This document shows positions 30,128 through 38,468 of a stretch of 64,000 nucleotides of DNA, in pieces (within the stretch, counting starts at the first letter, position 1; each line of letters begins with the position of its first letter). The stretch spans positions 3,968,001 through 4,032,000 of the forward strand of contig NZ_CP081862.1 in the NCBI RefSeq assembly GCF_019797765.1, in the 5' to 3' direction. The stretch comes from Cellulomonas sp. C5510. GTDB taxonomy: Bacteria > Actinomycetota > Actinomycetes > Actinomycetales > Cellulomonadaceae. The notes under the pieces were generated by a model. That model was not told where the DNA came from. It saw nothing but the letters and a program-made list of their open reading frames with translations, and made no database searches. The position numbers were made by a program, and so were the translations under genes.

Positions 30128-31522
30128 TCAGCGACCGCCCGTCGTCAGGGCCGGCAGCTCGACCGTGAACGCCGTGCCGGCCTCCGGCGAGCTGGTCACC
30201 GAGACGCGGCCGCCGTGCGCCTCGACCAGCGACTGCGCGATCGCGGTGCCCAACCCCGAGCCCGCTGAGCCGGCGGTACGCGGCCGGCCGGGGTCGCCGC
30301 GCCAGAACCGCTCGAACACGTGCGGGAGCTGGGCGGCCGGGATGCCGGGCCCGGTGTCGGCGACGACGACCCGGTGGCGCTGGTCCCCCGGGACGACCCG
30401 CACCGTCACCACGGCGTCCGGCGGGGTGTGCTGGACGGCGTTCCCGACGAGGTTCCGCAGCACCTGCGCCAGGCGCGCGCCGTCGCCGAGCACCACCGCG
30501 GGCCGGTCGGCGTCGAGCCGGACCTCCCGCGCGGGCGCGACGACCCGGGTGTCGGCCACCACGTCACCGGCCAGCGCCGCGAGGTCCACCGGCTCGCTGT
30601 CCAGGGGTCGGCCGGAGTCGGTCCGCGCGAGCAGCGCGAGGTCCTCCACGAGCAGCCGCATCCGCACGAGCTGGCTCTCCACCCGCTCCATCGCGGCGGC
30701 CTGCCGGTCGGGATCGGTCAGCCCACCCCGCAGGTACAGGTCGACCCAGCCGGTGGCGGCCGTGAGCGGGGACCGCAGCTCGTGCGACGCGTCCGCGACG
30801 AACGCCCGGGTGCGCTGCTCGGCGTCCTGCTGGGCGTCGAACGCCGAGTTGACCATGCGCGCGACGTCCGCGACCGCCGGGTCGCCCCGGTCGTCCACCG
30901 GCAGCCGCACGCTGCGGTCACCGCCGGCGATGCGCGCGGCCCGTTGGGCCATGGCGGTCAGGGGCCGCAGCCCGCGGTCGACGATCGCCACGGCGACGGC
31001 GATGAGCAGCGCGATCGTGACGGCCGCCCCGACGGCGAGCGCCCCCACGATCGTCGCCAGCGTGGCCCGTCGCTGCCCGCCGTCGGAGACCAGCACCACG
31101 CGGTCGACCGCGACGGGAGCGCCGCCGACCGCGTAGGTGAGGAGGCCCGCCGTGTCGATCGCGGCCGCGAGGTCCCCGGAGGCGACCTCGACGGGCTCCG
31201 CTGACTCGACGGCGGCGACCGTCGCCGGGTCGGCGCCGAGCGGCGGCACGGAGGTGAGGACGTCCCCGGAGGCGCCGACGAGCACGACGCCGAGCTGGTG
31301 CCCGACCGCGTCGCCCAGCCGGTCGGACGTCAGGTCCGCCCCGCCGGCGGCGCGCAGGCTGCCGAGCACACGCGTGGCGGCGTCCTCGAGCGAGCGCCGG
31401 TCACGCTGGTCGAGCTGGTGCGAGGCCAGCGAGAACCCGATGACCGCCGACAGGACGATCGCGAGCGACGTGACGAGGGACAGCGTCAGCGTCAGCCGCG
31501 CCCGGATCGAGCGGGCCCTCAT
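30128..31522 (-). CDS. Sensor histidine kinase (HisKA, HAMP)
   Basis: 464-residue membrane kinase: TM1 about 10-35, a sensor region of about 120 residues outside the membrane, TM2 about 158-181, a HAMP-like linker (DRGLRPLTAMAQRAARIAGG), phosphoacceptor His247 in DASHELRSPLT, and ATPase boxes NLVGNAVQHTP (N), VADTGPGIP (G1), FERFW (F) and GSGLGTAI (G2). The ATG overlaps the regulator's stop (ATGA). Last gene of the minus-strand MMPL operon. Confidence 0.93.
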   Translation of the reverse strand: MRARSIRARLTLTLSLVTSLAIVLSAVIGFSLASHQLDQRDRRSLEDAATRVLGSLRAAGGADLTSDRLGDAVGHQLGVVLVGASGDVLTSVPPLGADPATVAAVESAEPVEVASGDLAAAIDTAGLLTYAVGGAPVAVDRVVLVSDGGQRRATLATIVGALAVGAAVTIALLIAVAVAIVDRGLRPLTAMAQRAARIAGGDRSVRLPVDDRGDPAVADVARMVNSAFDAQQDAEQRTRAFVADASHELRSPLTAATGWVDLYLRGGLTDPDRQAAAMERVESQLVRMRLLVEDLALLARTDSGRPLDSEPVDLAALAGDVVADTRVVAPAREVRLDADRPAVVLGDGARLAQVLRNLVGNAVQHTPPDAVVTVRVVPGDQRHRVVVADTGPGIPAAQLPHVFERFWRGDPGRPRTAGSAGSGLGTAIAQSLVEAHGGRVSVTSSPEAGTAFTVELPALTTGGR

Positions 31523-32208
31523 GCGGCCGAGGGGTCGCGCACCGCGTAGCCGAAGCCGCGGACGGTCCTGATGAGGGGGGCGTGGCCGTCGTCGACCTTG
31601 CGCCGCAGGTTCGACACGAAGCGCTCCACGACGTTGCCGTCGCCGCCGAAGTCGTACTGCCACACCGCGGCCATGATCTGGCCCTTCGACAGCACCCGGC
31701 CGCGCTGCTCCAGCAGCAGCTCGAGCAGCCGGAACTCGGTCGGCGAGAGGTCGACCGGCTCGCCTGCGCGGCGCACGAGGTGGTGGGCGCGGTCGAGCTC
31801 CAGGTCGGCGCACCGCAGCACGTCGTCGTCGGGCTCCGCCACCGACCCCCGTCGCAGCAGGGCGTCCAGCCGGGCGACCACCTCGGCCGCGCTGAACGGC
31901 TTCGTCACGTAGTCGTCGGCGCCGAGCCGCAGGCCCCGCACCCGGTCGTCGACGGAGTCCCGCGCGGACAGGAACAGCACCGGCAGCGCGGCGTCGCGCC
32001 GGCGGACGAGCTGGACGAGCTCGAACCCGTCGGTGCCGGGCATGGACACGTCCAGCACCAGCACGTCCGGCCGGTGCGCCCTCAGGGCCGAGAGCGCCTC
32101 GGTGGCGCCCGCCGCGACGTCGACGGTGAACCCGGCGAACTCCAGGGTCGACGCGAGCATCTCCCGGATCTCGGGGTCGTCGTCCACGACCAGCACGCGG
32201 GGGGCCAT
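31519..32208 (-). CDS. OmpR/PhoB family response regulator
   Basis: 229-residue regulator: receiver with acidic pair Asp10/11, phosphoacceptor Asp53 (VLDVSMPG) and KPFS switch, then a winged-helix DNA-binding domain ending ...VKFVSNLRRK-like and TVRGFGYAV. It lies 21 bases after the YhgE-like gene and overlaps the kinase start. OmpR-type proteins bind direct repeats spaced one helical turn apart; such a repeat is found before the first gene of this operon. Confidence 0.93.
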   Translation of the reverse strand: MAPRVLVVDDDPEIREMLASTLEFAGFTVDVAAGATEALSALRAHRPDVLVLDVSMPGTDGFELVQLVRRRDAALPVLFLSARDSVDDRVRGLRLGADDYVTKPFSAAEVVARLDALLRRGSVAEPDDDVLRCADLELDRAHHLVRRAGEPVDLSPTEFRLLELLLEQRGRVLSKGQIMAAVWQYDFGGDGNVVERFVSNLRRKVDDGHAPLIRTVRGFGYAVRDPSAA

Positions 32209-32229: not shown

Positions 32230-34143
32230 TCAGGCCGCGGGCATGAGGACGGGCGGCCGCGGAGCGGGCACGGCGGGGACCACGGGCACCGGGACGAGGC
32301 GCTGCCGGCGGATGCCCGCGGCAGCGAGCGCGAGGCCGGCCGCACCCCACGCCACCAGCACGACCAGGTCGGTCCCGAGGGCGGCGCCGGACCCGCCCGC
32401 ACCGCCGGTGGCGAGCGCGGCGGCCGCGTCGGCGAACGCGCCCAGGGGCAGCAGCCCGTGCAGTGCGGCGAGCGGGGCCGGGGCGGTCTCCAGGGGCACC
32501 AGGCCGCCCACCGCGGCGATCTCCAGCACGGTGAGGACGGCGAGCGCCGGCACGCCTGCCCGCGGGAGCGCGGTCACCGCGCCGGAGGCGAGCAGGGTGA
32601 ACACGAGGCCGGCCAGCAGCGCGACGCCGGCGAAGGGCAGCGGCTCCGCGACGGACGCGCCGCCGACCGCGAGGGTCGCGGTGCACGCCAGCGTCGCGAC
32701 CGCCGCCACCAGAGCCCGGGGCGCGAGCACGCGGCGGACCAGGCGCCGGGTCCGCACCGGCGCGTCGAGCTCCCGCCGGCCCGGGCGCCGTCCGACCAGC
32801 GCCACCGTGACGGCCCCCAGCCAGAGCACGACCGCGGTGACCGTCGCGGCGAGCCACCCGTCCGCCTCGGACCCGGCGATCTCGCTCACCGCCACGGGCT
32901 CGGTCACGACGTCGGCGAGCCGCTCGGCGTCCCCCCCGGCGACGGCGGGCACCTGGGCGGCCCCGGACGCGAGACCGTCGGCGAGCGACCGGGAGGACGT
33001 CGCCGCGGTGGCCGCCCCGGCTGCGACCTCGTCCGCGCCGGAGGCCAGGTCCGCGGCGCCGGACCCGAGCTGCGTCGCGGCGTCGGCCGCCCGGGTCGCA
33101 CCCGTGGCGAGGTCCGCCGCCCCGGACGCGAGGCCGGCCGCCCCCGACGCCACCTGGCCTGCTGCGTCGTCGACGCCCGCCGCACCCGCGGCCAGCCCCG
33201 CGGTGCCCGCCGCGAGGTCCGCACTCCCGGAGGCGACCGTGGCCGCGGCCCCGGCCGTCGCGTCGAGCTGGGCGCAGAACGGCTCCGACCCGGGCACGGG
33301 CGGGCACGCCTCGGACAGCGCCGCGAGCGAGGACGCCAGGCTCTGGCTGCCGGTCGCGAGCGACCCGGCGGCGGCGTCGACCGAGCCCGCCGCCGCCGCG
33401 AGGTCCCCGGTGCCGGCGGCCAGCGACGCGGCTCCCCCGGACAGGTCCTGCGCGCCGCCGGCGAGGGACGACGCCCCCGCGCTCACCGAGTCGGTGCCGG
33501 CGGCGAGCGTGCCGGCACCTTCCGCGAGGGACAATGCGCCGTCAGCGGCGGAGGCGGCCCCGCTGGTCAGCGCGTCGAGGCCGTCCGTCAGGTCGGACGC
33601 GCCCGCCGTCGCCTCGGTCAGCGCGCCGGACAGGTCGTCCATCCCCGCGTAGACCTGCGTGAGGTACGCCTCGGTGACCTGGTCACCCAGGCTCTGCGCC
33701 GCACCGTCGGCGACGGCACGGCTCGCGACCGCGCCGACCGTGGAGGACGCGGGGTCGGTCTCGAGCACCAGCTGCGCCTGCCGGGGGTCGTCGCCGCCGG
33801 AGGACAGCACGTCGGCCGAGAAGCTCTCCGGGATGGTGAGCACGGCGTCGTACGTGCCGTCGGCGAGGCCCTGCTCCGCGTCCTCGGCGGAGGTCAGGCG
33901 CCAGTCGAGGGAGGTCGTGCCGTCCTCCGGGTGGATGAGCGCGGACGACAGCGCCCGGCCCGCCGCCATGGGGGTGTCGCCGCGGACGATCTCGTCCTCG
34001 TTCACGATCGCGGCGGGGATCCGGTCCACGGCGTCCGCGCGGTCGGCGAAGCTCCAGATCAGGACGGCGGTCGCCAGGACGGGCAGCAGGACGGCGGCGA
34101 GCGCGGCGAGCGCCACCGCCCGCGTGCGGGTGGTGCGGGTCAT
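32230..34143 (-). CDS. YhgE/Pip-like ABC-2-type membrane protein
   Basis: 637-residue membrane protein. One N-terminal TM segment (about 9-31) is followed by a large extracytoplasmic region whose centre (about 170-410) is an Ala/Gly/Ser-rich heptad-like repeat of the pattern SGAA.LA.GA..LA, characteristic of YhgE/Pip proteins, and then five to six C-terminal TM segments (about 440-620). Members act as membrane partners of ABC ATPases or MMPL proteins and as phage-infection proteins in Gram-positives; the cargo is unknown. The ATG overlaps the MMPL stop (ATGA). In related operons a separate ABC ATPase often precedes this gene; here only a fused, degenerate one is visible. Confidence 0.82.
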   Translation of the reverse strand: MTRTTRTRAVALAALAAVLLPVLATAVLIWSFADRADAVDRIPAAIVNEDEIVRGDTPMAAGRALSSALIHPEDGTTSLDWRLTSAEDAEQGLADGTYDAVLTIPESFSADVLSSGGDDPRQAQLVLETDPASSTVGAVASRAVADGAAQSLGDQVTEAYLTQVYAGMDDLSGALTEATAGASDLTDGLDALTSGAASAADGALSLAEGAGTLAAGTDSVSAGASSLAGGAQDLSGGAASLAAGTGDLAAAAGSVDAAAGSLATGSQSLASSLAALSEACPPVPGSEPFCAQLDATAGAAATVASGSADLAAGTAGLAAGAAGVDDAAGQVASGAAGLASGAADLATGATRAADAATQLGSGAADLASGADEVAAGAATAATSSRSLADGLASGAAQVPAVAGGDAERLADVVTEPVAVSEIAGSEADGWLAATVTAVVLWLGAVTVALVGRRPGRRELDAPVRTRRLVRRVLAPRALVAAVATLACTATLAVGGASVAEPLPFAGVALLAGLVFTLLASGAVTALPRAGVPALAVLTVLEIAAVGGLVPLETAPAPLAALHGLLPLGAFADAAAALATGGAGGSGAALGTDLVVLVAWGAAGLALAAAGIRRQRLVPVPVVPAVPAPRPPVLMPAA

Positions 34144-36881
34144 CGGACGGTCTCCAGCTCCTGGGTGACGGGGGCGGCGGCGAGGTCGAGGCGGACGACG
34201 GTGGCGCCGTGGCGCAGGAGCGTCGCGGCGAGGCCGGCCGGGGCGTCGGTGAGGACGAGCAGCCGGGCGCCGCCCGCGAGCGCCACGGTGGCGGCCAGCC
34301 GCAGCCGGGCGGCGGGGTCCAGGGCGTCGGTCGGTGTGCCCAGGTCGCCGAGCACGGCACGCACCCGGTCGACCCGGGCACGGCGGACGCGGCGGGACCC
34401 GGGGCTCAGGGCGAGGGTCCTGCGCGCGTACTCCTCGGCGGTCGTGCCGCCGGGGACGTCCGCGGCCGTGGGGGCGGCGACCAGGCACCGCGCCTCCTCG
34501 GCCTGCTCGGGGAGGATGCGGCCCGCCACGGCCAGCTCGCCGGAGACGGTCCGGGCCCGCGCGGTCAGGGCCAGGGACACCGCGCGGGCGGCCGCCAGGT
34601 CCGCCACGGGGAGCGCCACCACGTCGCCGGCGTCCGCCCACACGTCCAGCGGGGCGTCCCCCTCCCGCACCACGAGCCCGCGGGCCACCAGCAGCGGCGG
34701 TCCGGCGCGGCCCGATCGGCTGCCGGCGACCACGTGCCGCTCCACCGCCTGGCCCTCCACGTCGACGACGGGCAGGACGCGGGCCAGCCGGCGCGGCAGC
34801 CACCACGCCCGGTCGCCCAGCAGCACGAGCACCGCCGGCACGAGCGTCATCCGGACCAGGAACGCGTCGACCAGCACACCCACGGCGAGGCCGAGGGCGA
34901 TCGGCTTCAGCGTGGCCGCGCCCGACGGCACGAACGCGGAGAACACCGCGACCATGATGACCGCCGCCGCCGCGACGACCGGCGCCGAGTGCCGGAACCC
35001 GTCCAGCACCGCCTCGCGGGCCGGCTGCCCGTGCGCGTACTGCTCCCGCATCCGGCTGACCAGGAACATCTCGTAGTCCATCGCGAGCCCGAACAGCACG
35101 CCCATGACGATGATCGGCAGGAAGCTGACGACCGGCCCCGGGCTCTGCCCGAACAGCAGCACCGGGAACCAGCCCCACTGGAACACCGCGACGATCGCCC
35201 CGAACGACGCGCCGACGGACAGCACGTACCCGACGGTGGCCTTGAGCGGCACCGCGACCGACCGGAACACCAGCAGCAGGAGCACGAACGACAGGCCGAC
35301 CACCGTCAGCCCGAACGGCAGCAGCGCGTCGGCGAGCTGCTCGGAGATGTCGATGTTGACCGCCGTGGTCCCGGTGACCCGCAGGTCGGAGACGCCGGTC
35401 GCGTCCTCGATCGCCGGCGCCCGCTCCCGCAGCTCGTGCACGAGGTCCACCGTGGCGGGGTCGGACTGCGCGCCCTCCGGGACGATGCGCAGCAGCGCGG
35501 TGTCGCCGCCCGGGTTCGGGGTCGCGGTGTCCACGGCGACGACGCCCGGGACGGCCGCGACGGCGTCCGCCAGCTCGTCGACCGTCGCGACCGGGTCGGT
35601 GCTCGCGAGGACGTCCGCCGTGATCAGCAGGGGCGCGTTCCACCCCGGCCCGAAGGTCTCGCTCACCGCGTCGAAGTGGTCGCGCTCCGGCGTGCCGACC
35701 TCCTGCGTGCTCGGGTCCGGCAGGGCCAGGGAGATGCGGAACGCGGGCAGCGCGAGCACGGCCAGCACCGCCACGACCACGCCGATCGTGAGGGCCGGCA
35801 CCCGGGTCACGAGGCGGACCCAGCGCTGCGACAGCGAGGGGCGGCCGGCGGCGGCACCGCGGCGGGCCGCGCCACGCCGCGGGCGGGGACGCAGGCGGTC
35901 GCCGGCCAGGAGGGCCAGCGCCGGCACCAGCGTCAGCGCCACGAGCACCGCGGTCGCCACCGCGAACGCCCCGGCCATGCCCATGCCGGTCAGCAGCGGG
36001 ATCCCCACCACCGCGAGGCCGGCCAGCGAGATGACGACCGTCAGCCCCGCGAACACCACGGCACTGCCCGACGTCCCCAGTGCCCGCGCCATCGACTCCC
36101 GCGGCGGCACGCCCTCGGCGAGCTGGTGCCGGTGCCGCGACAGGATGAACAGCGCGTAGTCGATGCCCACCGCGAGGCCGAGCATCGACGCGAAGCTCGG
36201 TGAGGTCGTCGACACGGCCGCGACCTGCGAGACCAGCCCCAGCAACCCGGTCGTCAGCAGCACGCCCACGCCGGCGGTGAGGATGGGCATCCCCGCGGCC
36301 AGCAGCGAGCCGAACGTCAGCACCAGCACCACCAGCGCGACCCCCACGCCGATGACCTCGGCGGTGTGGTCGAGCTCCGCCACGCCGTTGCCGAACGCCG
36401 AGCCCCCCACCGTCGAGGTCACGCCGTCCTCGTCGACCGTCGCGGCGTCCTGCGCCGCCTCGAGCACCGCGTCGTCCGGCTCCGCGTCCTCGAACTGGAT
36501 CGTCGCGAGGGCCGCGTCGCCCTCCTCGTCGACCCGCAGGTCCTCCGCGGCGGTCACGCTCGCGACGCCCGGCACCGCCCCGATCGCGTCGAGGCTCGCC
36601 GCCACGACGTCCGCCGCCGGCGCCGCCGCCACGTCCTGCCCCTCCGCGACGCGGTACAGCACCTGCCCGCTGGCGCCGGACGCCGCGTCCCCGAACCGCT
36701 GCTCCAGCACGTCCTGCCCCTGCTGGGACTCCGTGCCCGGGATCGTGTAGTCGTCCTGGTACGCCGACCCCACCGCGCGCGACCCGGCGACCACGCCGAG
36801 CGCGACGACGACCCAGAGCACGAGGACCAGCAGGCGGTGCCGGCCGATCAGGTGGCCGAGACGGTAGAGGGCGAGCGACAT
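34140..36881 (-). CDS. MMPL family transporter with C-terminal degenerate ABC ATPase-like domain
   Basis: 913 residues. Residues 1-700 form an RND-type MMPL lipid or drug transporter: TM1 at the N-terminus, an extracytoplasmic domain, a five-TM block (LAVGIDYALFILSRHRHQL), a second such domain and a second block (GLAMDYEMFLVSRMREQY). Residues about 730-913 instead resemble an ABC ATPase running strand for strand: a Walker A region reading GDVVALPVADLAAARAVSL without GxxGxGKS, a signature-like DPAARLRLAATVALAGG, and a Walker B-like LLVLTDAPAGL lacking the Glu. It therefore cannot bind ATP in the normal way. The ATG at 36881 is the natural MMPL start. First gene of a four-gene operon with YhgE-like protein, regulator and kinase. 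Confidence 0.88.
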   Translation of the reverse strand: MSLALYRLGHLIGRHRLLVLVLWVVVALGVVAGSRAVGSAYQDDYTIPGTESQQGQDVLEQRFGDAASGASGQVLYRVAEGQDVAAAPAADVVAASLDAIGAVPGVASVTAAEDLRVDEEGDAALATIQFEDAEPDDAVLEAAQDAATVDEDGVTSTVGGSAFGNGVAELDHTAEVIGVGVALVVLVLTFGSLLAAGMPILTAGVGVLLTTGLLGLVSQVAAVSTTSPSFASMLGLAVGIDYALFILSRHRHQLAEGVPPRESMARALGTSGSAVVFAGLTVVISLAGLAVVGIPLLTGMGMAGAFAVATAVLVALTLVPALALLAGDRLRPRPRRGAARRGAAAGRPSLSQRWVRLVTRVPALTIGVVVAVLAVLALPAFRISLALPDPSTQEVGTPERDHFDAVSETFGPGWNAPLLITADVLASTDPVATVDELADAVAAVPGVVAVDTATPNPGGDTALLRIVPEGAQSDPATVDLVHELRERAPAIEDATGVSDLRVTGTTAVNIDISEQLADALLPFGLTVVGLSFVLLLLVFRSVAVPLKATVGYVLSVGASFGAIVAVFQWGWFPVLLFGQSPGPVVSFLPIIVMGVLFGLAMDYEMFLVSRMREQYAHGQPAREAVLDGFRHSAPVVAAAAVIMVAVFSAFVPSGAATLKPIALGLAVGVLVDAFLVRMTLVPAVLVLLGDRAWWLPRRLARVLPVVDVEGQAVERHVVAGSRSGRAGPPLLVARGLVVREGDAPLDVWADAGDVVALPVADLAAARAVSLALTARARTVSGELAVAGRILPEQAEEARCLVAAPTAADVPGGTTAEEYARRTLALSPGSRRVRRARVDRVRAVLGDLGTPTDALDPAARLRLAATVALAGGARLLVLTDAPAGLAATLLRHGATVVRLDLAAAPVTQELETVR

Positions 36882-37934: not shown

Positions 37935-38468
37935 TTGAACGGGTCCCGGCCCGGAACGCGGATGTCGATCGTCGATCCTCCGGACCGCGACATCACCGAG
38001 CACCCCACCCGCGAGGGCAAGCTCTACTGCTGCTGCGTCCTGGACGCCTTCAACCGGAGGATCATCGGCTGGTCGATCGACTCCACCCAGGACACCCGCC
38101 TGGTCATCAACGCCCTCGACATGGCCATCAGCAACCGAGACCCGGCCCCGGGCGGGATCGTGCATGCCGATCACGGGGCCCAGTTCACGTCCTGGGCGTT
38201 CGGGGACCGGATCCGGCAGGCCGGCCTCATGCCATCGTTCGGGTCCGTCGGTGACGGCCTGGACAACGCGACGATGGAATCGTTCTGGTCCTCGATGCAG
38301 ATCGAGCTGCTCAACCGACAGCGGTGGAACACCCGCGTCGAACTCGCGAACGCGATCTTCGAGAACATCGAGATCTTCCACAACCGCCGCCGCCGGCACT
38401 CCAGCCTCGGCTACCTCAGCCCGATCGAGTTCGAGCTACGCTCCGAACTGCCATCCATACCGGCCTGA
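37935..38468 (+). mobile_element. Truncated IS3-family transposase (orfB integrase core)
   Basis: The frame encodes the rve integrase core of an IS3-type OrfB: first Asp in DITEHPTREGKLYC, second in HADHGAQFTSW, and Glu in NATMESFWSSMQIELL, closing with HNRRRRHSSLGYLSPIEFE. All three DDE residues are present, but about 100 N-terminal residues and the whole orfA are missing, and the WVT normally found before DITEHP is lost. No terminal inverted repeat pair or target duplication was found. The first codons in the frame are not homologous, so the true gene start is gone. It is a dead remnant. Confidence 0.8.

Follow-up and report, generated by a model that had tools for sequence, protein, structure and literature searches.

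Exporters of the ABC-2/ABCG type require ATP-binding cassette (ABC) nucleotide-binding domains (NBDs) at the cytosolic loop between transmembrane helices 2 and 3 (TM2-TM3) of their membrane domain, and in the ABCG/ABCH and ABCA exporters NBD and membrane domain are found on one chain. YhgE/Pip is a phage-infection and envelope protein, and MmpL3 is not known, to our knowledge, to carry an NBD. We analysed a stretch of 64,000 nucleotides from Cellulomonas sp. C5510 (NZ_CP081862.1, positions 3,968,001 to 4,032,000; hereafter the window), in which an MMPL transporter of the RND superfamily (913 aa, 34140..36881, minus strand; assigned by PF03176 and its match to MmpL3 chains) carries at its C-terminus a degenerate ABC NBD (about residues 726-913, 34143..34706, minus strand; assigned by profile and fold matches) and is followed by a YhgE/Pip protein (637 aa, 32230..34143, minus strand; assigned by family profiles and a structure model). 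Unlike in the ABCG/ABCH and ABCA exporters, the NBD is attached to a different transporter and is inactive by its motifs. We know of no MMPL-NBD partner described for EsaA of type VII secretion or for the Pip phage-infection proteins, with which the YhgE of the window shares the YhgE N-terminal domain family. No MMPL-NBD fusion or MMPL-YhgE unit was found described in search listings of the open-licence literature or in the passages on YhgE of PMC12584985. An ABC domain is likewise unmentioned in the source names shown for the MMPL-containing database relatives of the tail of a fused homolog (L044), many of which are unnamed. We consider it likely that the two products form one complex, in which the NBD of a YhgE-type ABC-2 exporter is fused to an MMPL pump and acts, in the lineage of the window, as a dead coupler.

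The tail is an NBD by fold. Its AlphaFold model is confident (predicted local distance difference test, pLDDT, 84.6), and ABC NBDs made up all 50 Foldseek and all 50 VIA matches listed for it. A profile built from the window tail and 34 aligned relatives gave ABC ATPases in 60 of the 60 PDB matches listed, of 174. At E up to 1, single tails matched ABC_tran in three of 35 cases (best 3.4e-07) and the ABC families of NCBIfam in up to 13 of 35 for one family. The window tail alone (residues 697-913) found nothing of value in Pfam, NCBIfam or PDB (best PDB match at E 0.48, unrelated); it lies below the Pfam gathering score, so that no family is assigned, and a protein search with the tail region returned a single protein, 99% identical to that of the window. 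PF03176 and PF00005 occur together in the precomputed Pfam column for 43 of 66 database relatives of the L044 tail, which shows that standard tools detect the architecture in less eroded members. One tail search yielded 25 matches, comprising 18 fused tails, one free-standing ATPase just upstream of yhgE (L010) and six others; L015, L019, L020, L022, L023 and L025 were dropped as tails because they lack the MMPL core, and ABC genes from four of them were used as controls. A chance resemblance to ABC domains was rejected on the profile matches, the fold matches and the NBD tree described below. A common C-terminal extension of MMPL proteins without ABC kinship was rejected on the profile and fold matches too, and untailed MMPLs stop 21-101 residues past a shared reference point.

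In the window tail (all positions on the minus strand), PVADLAAA stands at the Walker A position (residues 758-765, 34587..34610), LDPAARLRLA at the position of the LSGGQ signature (residues 854-863, 34293..34322) and ARLLVLTDAP at the Walker B position (residues 872-881, 34239..34268), where the catalytic Glu is replaced by Ala. Walker A, signature and catalytic Glu are thus all gone, and the Walker B Asp (LTDAP) alone remains. We aligned these motifs in 60 fused NBDs, 30 free-standing YhgE-linked NBDs and 28 canonical controls. GxxxxGK[ST] was present in 10/60 fused, 2/30 free-standing and 27/28 control sequences, and a Glu directly after the Walker B Asp in 5/60, 1/30 and 28/28, respectively. 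The SGG of the signature was confined to the controls (24/28, against 0/60 and 0/30), and GR[ST] in Walker A to the free-standing NBDs (22/30, against 0/60 and 0/28). The controls, found by a profile from motif-bearing ABC genes, have no tail-profile match apart from L184 and include several near-copies; their motif counts and their separation in the tree are a yardstick for the alignment and not an independent test. Near-copies (e.g. L026, L107 and L003) also occur among the fused rows, while L189 was added to the table by hand and L149 and L184 were excluded by hand from the YhgE-linked rows.

The distance between Walker A and Walker B is bimodal in the 60 fused NBDs, with 29 at 51-66 residues, one at 69, one at 75 and 29 at 105-133, and it is 110-137 in the free-standing NBDs. 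The NBD of the window is of the long type; the short distances indicate that about half of the fused NBDs are without the helical subdomain. Fused NBDs were also observed in mycobacterial (Mycobacteroides abscessus, Mycobacterium talmoniae) and pseudonocardial proteins (among P0016-P0065), and those that were read resemble the short type by eye and mostly have a GKS P-loop. This architecture occurs widely across Actinomycetota, among them the mycobacteria. The free-standing YhgE ATPases (e.g. L139, L145-L148, L157-L159 and L161-L163) appear as a non-canonical ABC ATPase family in their own right. Since these are already degenerate when unfused and some fused relatives have an intact P-loop, capture preceded full erosion in the line of the window. 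The earlier note, made from the sequence alone, had proposed a captured ABC ATPase with Walker A and the Walker B Glu erased and had named as counter-evidence a tail that MMPL proteins share and that is unrelated to ABC domains, of which we saw no sign; the ABC kinship and the erasure both stand, and its picture of the capture is refined in that degeneration had begun in the free-standing family before the fusion. Members range from those with an intact P-loop, through those with erased motifs, to those without the helical subdomain, a natural series for studying how an ABC motor turns into a pseudo-enzyme.

The tail is tightly linked to YhgE. We collected 61 distinct tailed MMPLs, 59 of them with at least 300 bp downstream, and YhgE follows on the same strand within 200 bp in 58 of these 59. 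At the 59th locus (L149), YhgE lies in the same stretch with disturbed frames; there the MMPL and YhgE frames are merged, apparently because the assembly is out of frame at this point. The comparison set comprised 59 distinct untailed MMPLs, and in the loci of the 53 with 2 kb or more of downstream sequence no same-strand YhgE was found; nor was YhgE found on either strand near untailed MMPLs. Twenty-five tailed loci span at least 5 kb, and in 23 of them no other ABC gene was detected by profile; in the remaining two, another ABC gene lies upstream of the MMPL frame, at a distance of about 2.4 kb (L039), or on the other strand (L149), in neither case beside yhgE. Thirty additional loci were kept out of all counts.

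The nearest free-standing relatives point to the same partner. We searched 394 genomes of the class with the tail profile and obtained, in 32 of them, 34 matches at E 2.6e-23 or better that begin at its MMPL end; below them follow, among others, free-standing ABC genes. We fetched 14 stretches with 15 free-standing matches (14 of the 15 best-ranked, G241 being left out, and one further down), and yhgE is the next gene downstream of all 15. Such actinobacterial pairs (e.g. L145, L157 and L165) have the same NBD family and the same order, ATPase then yhgE, as the window. They differ in that their NBD has a gene of its own, in most cases with GR[ST] for GK[ST] (the 22/30 above), and that no MMPL was found in any of the 14 fetched stretches, whereas the NBD of the window is an MMPL tail with an erased Walker A. 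The second yhgE of the Cellulomonas genome (L165, C1:1495600-1505100) has directly upstream a free-standing ATPase with a GPQGGGRS P-loop, and both the fused (L188, the window itself) and the free-standing arrangement are therefore present in this genome. An independent search, with YhgE as its starting point, gave TIGR03061 matches in 41 of 198 genomes of the phylum. Its 40 stretches, together with L146, cover all 48 matches over the cut-off and four of 18 weaker ones. It reached the same ATPase type: yhgE directly follows a free-standing, tail-like ATPase gene in 14 of the 40 stretches (L156-L165, L171, L186, L190 and L191) and a weaker one in one (L189); one stretch is the window, and in the other 24 no tail-like ATPase was detected directly upstream. 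Eleven of these 24, from other lineages of the phylum, hold tandem yhgE pairs (L174-L180, L182, L183, L185 and L187). Two further suggestions of the earlier note, that the NBD tail occupies the usual slot of a YhgE-partner ATPase gene and that tailed MMPLs co-occur with YhgE-like partners, were thus borne out, the latter essentially within one clade.

In quick trees of the NBD, YhgE and MMPL sequences, the fusion of the NBD to the MMPL C-terminus probably appears as a single event. Fused and free-standing YhgE-linked NBDs group together apart from 27 canonical ones (support 99.7; the truncated control L097 was left out), and the label "fused" needs two changes on this tree. Two changes are also needed for the 50 fused-locus rows among the 111 of the YhgE tree. 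In the MMPL tree (90 rows), all 61 tailed MMPLs lie on one side of a branch, on which several independent fusions were rejected, with the caveat that the support is only 81; this tree leaves out L001, L002, L107, L052, L053, L058, stretch-repeating rows, cores under 430 residues and all but six of L073-L105. Family f91 (L186, L189, L190 and L191) comprises a free-standing, strongly eroded YhgE-type ATPase whose YhgE is placed within the fused clade, on a long branch next to a second long one; no MMPL remnant was seen near these loci, and fission or misplacement both fit.

The MMPL core is ordinary, with two stretches of PF03176 above the Pfam cut-off (E 9.3e-82, 275.1 bits). Like MmpL3-type transporters it matches MmpL3 chains among PDB sequences (best E 2.3e-47) and has Asp-Tyr pairs in both halves, GIDYALF (residues 239-245, 36147..36167, minus strand) and AMDYEMF (residues 600-606, 35064..35084, minus strand), presumably the proton-relay residues with motif and role as in MmpL3. 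It differs in its C-terminal NBD and falls far short of the MmpL3 equivalog cut-off (194.7 vs 1400 bits required). The YhgE protein scores above the cut-off for TIGR03061, the YhgE/Pip N-terminal domain (114.5 vs 96.15 bits), and for Pfam ABC2_membrane_3 (47.5 vs 31.6 bits), and under it for TIGR03062, the YhgE/Pip C-terminal domain (62.8 vs 102.2 bits), and for TIGR03929, EsaA (46 vs 122 bits). It has an ABCG/ABCA-like membrane fold, with an ABCG-like membrane domain and a long helical region that is probably extracellular. Its TM2-TM3 loop (residues 456-476, 32716..32778, minus strand) is at the place of the coupling helix of ABC-2/ABCG exporters and would have the same coupling role here.

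ABC-2 exporters need NBDs, and in these operons no NBD of the YhgE-linked family other than the MMPL tail was found. We therefore infer that the tail binds YhgE and that the two proteins act as one unit, the tail serving, as the earlier note proposed, as the adaptor that links the RND pump to the ABC-2 protein. In such a complex, the NBD of a YhgE-type ABC-2 exporter, fused probably once onto the MMPL C-terminus, would allow two MMPL chains to dock from the cytoplasm onto the TM2-TM3 coupling loops of a YhgE dimer, which would contribute the ABCG-like membrane domain and the long, probably extracellular, helical region. Fused relatives with a P-loop may still bind ATP, and nucleotide may set their state; in the lineage of the window, the NBD would serve for coupling, mechanically or in assembly, and no energy source is evident other than the proton-driven MMPL core. 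The cargo may be an envelope lipid, a glycolipid or a noxious amphiphile, which is a guess. We put forward more tentatively, as a doubtful extension, that this is an ABC-2-type exporter working without ATP, its YhgE membrane domain being driven by the proton-powered MMPL motor through the relic of its own NBD. If so, a single machine would combine RND with ABC transport, along an evolutionary series from ATP-competent NBD to dead coupler. The fusion brings together two transporter superfamilies regarded as distinct, and YhgE/Pip gains a defined ATPase family and a pump partner.

Several observations weigh against such a complex. The linkage is essentially one evolutionary event kept faithfully, so that co-occurrence does not amount to many independent tests, and the untailed MMPLs used for comparison are more distant relatives (51% identity or less). 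The free-standing ATPase-YhgE pairs work without a nearby MMPL, and the 24 stretches without a tail-like ATPase suggest that YhgE does not always need the NBD. The helical subdomain, the normal contact of the coupling helix, is missing from half of the fused NBDs, which must therefore dock in another way. For the YhgE model, the predicted template modelling score (pTM) is only 0.47, and Foldseek alone gave no match to it at E 0.001 or better. Finally, in each of the eight usable pairs the tail exceeds the core in its ratio of nonsynonymous to synonymous substitution rates (dN/dS), reaching 0.74 vs 0.18.

The tail could instead serve the MMPL alone, in regulation or folding, for example as a nucleotide or lipid sensor or in oligomerisation, and make no contact with YhgE, the two genes being merely co-transcribed. 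Loss of catalysis in the fused NBDs, and of the helical subdomain in half of them, is what might happen to a domain freed from its transporter partner, and the forms with an intact P-loop (L044 and the mycobacterial proteins) could be nucleotide sensors; we nevertheless regard it as unlikely in view of the YhgE at 58 of 59 tailed loci, with the 59th in disturbed frame, and of the YhgE-partner ATPases that are the nearest free-standing relatives fetched. Still less probable is that the tail remains an active or nucleotide-binding ATPase, possibly sharing sites with another NBD, for example the GPQGGGRS ATPase of the second YhgE system. GKT or GKS is kept in 10/60 fused relatives, the Walker B Asp is retained in the window, and a few other ABC genes do occur (L165 in the same genome, and the two tailed loci L039 and L149). 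However, the window tail is without P-loop Lys, signature and catalytic Glu, so that no ATP hydrolysis by the known mechanism is expected in its lineage, and the other 23 tailed loci of 5 kb or more offer no second ABC gene by profile.

The tail is under selective constraint, though less than the MMPL core. Between the window and L003 (98% identical), dN/dS is 0.13 for the tail and 0.08 for the core, and over the eight usable pairs the tail values range from 0.09 to 0.74, with five of the eight at 0.09-0.31. One of nine pairs, L134/L149, was dropped because the L149 tail is out of frame, and the L026/L003 pair, at 0.90 for the tail and 0.62 for the core, differs at too few positions to be very informative. 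On these values a decaying reading frame was rejected, notwithstanding the weaker constraint relative to the core. A functionless, decaying remnant retained only by being in frame would suit the strong sequence divergence of the tail and its excess of dN/dS over the core, by a wide margin in three pairs, but is very improbable given the low values in five pairs, a window tail that is open throughout, the confident AlphaFold core and the same partner kept across many families.

The gene order on the minus strand is MMPL, YhgE/Pip, OmpR-type response regulator (31519..32208) and sensor histidine kinase (30128..31531, approximate start). The start codon of yhgE shares bases with the MMPL stop (ATGA), and the response regulator gene lies 21 bp 3' of yhgE. 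No two-component pair was found downstream in seven Nocardioidaceae loci (L034-L040). Two-component genes are present 3' of yhgE in all seven loci of the sub-clade of Microbacteriaceae, Demequina and the window that have sufficient sequence (L026, a near-copy of the window, L027, L028, L030, L031, L032 and L188, the window itself). This co-operonic system may control the putative complex, and its position after yhgE fits a response to envelope stress or amphiphiles. On the other side of the operon, a piece of an integrase-core (rve) transposase (37935-38468, plus strand) separates the mmpl gene from a dnaB-like gene, assigned by eye.
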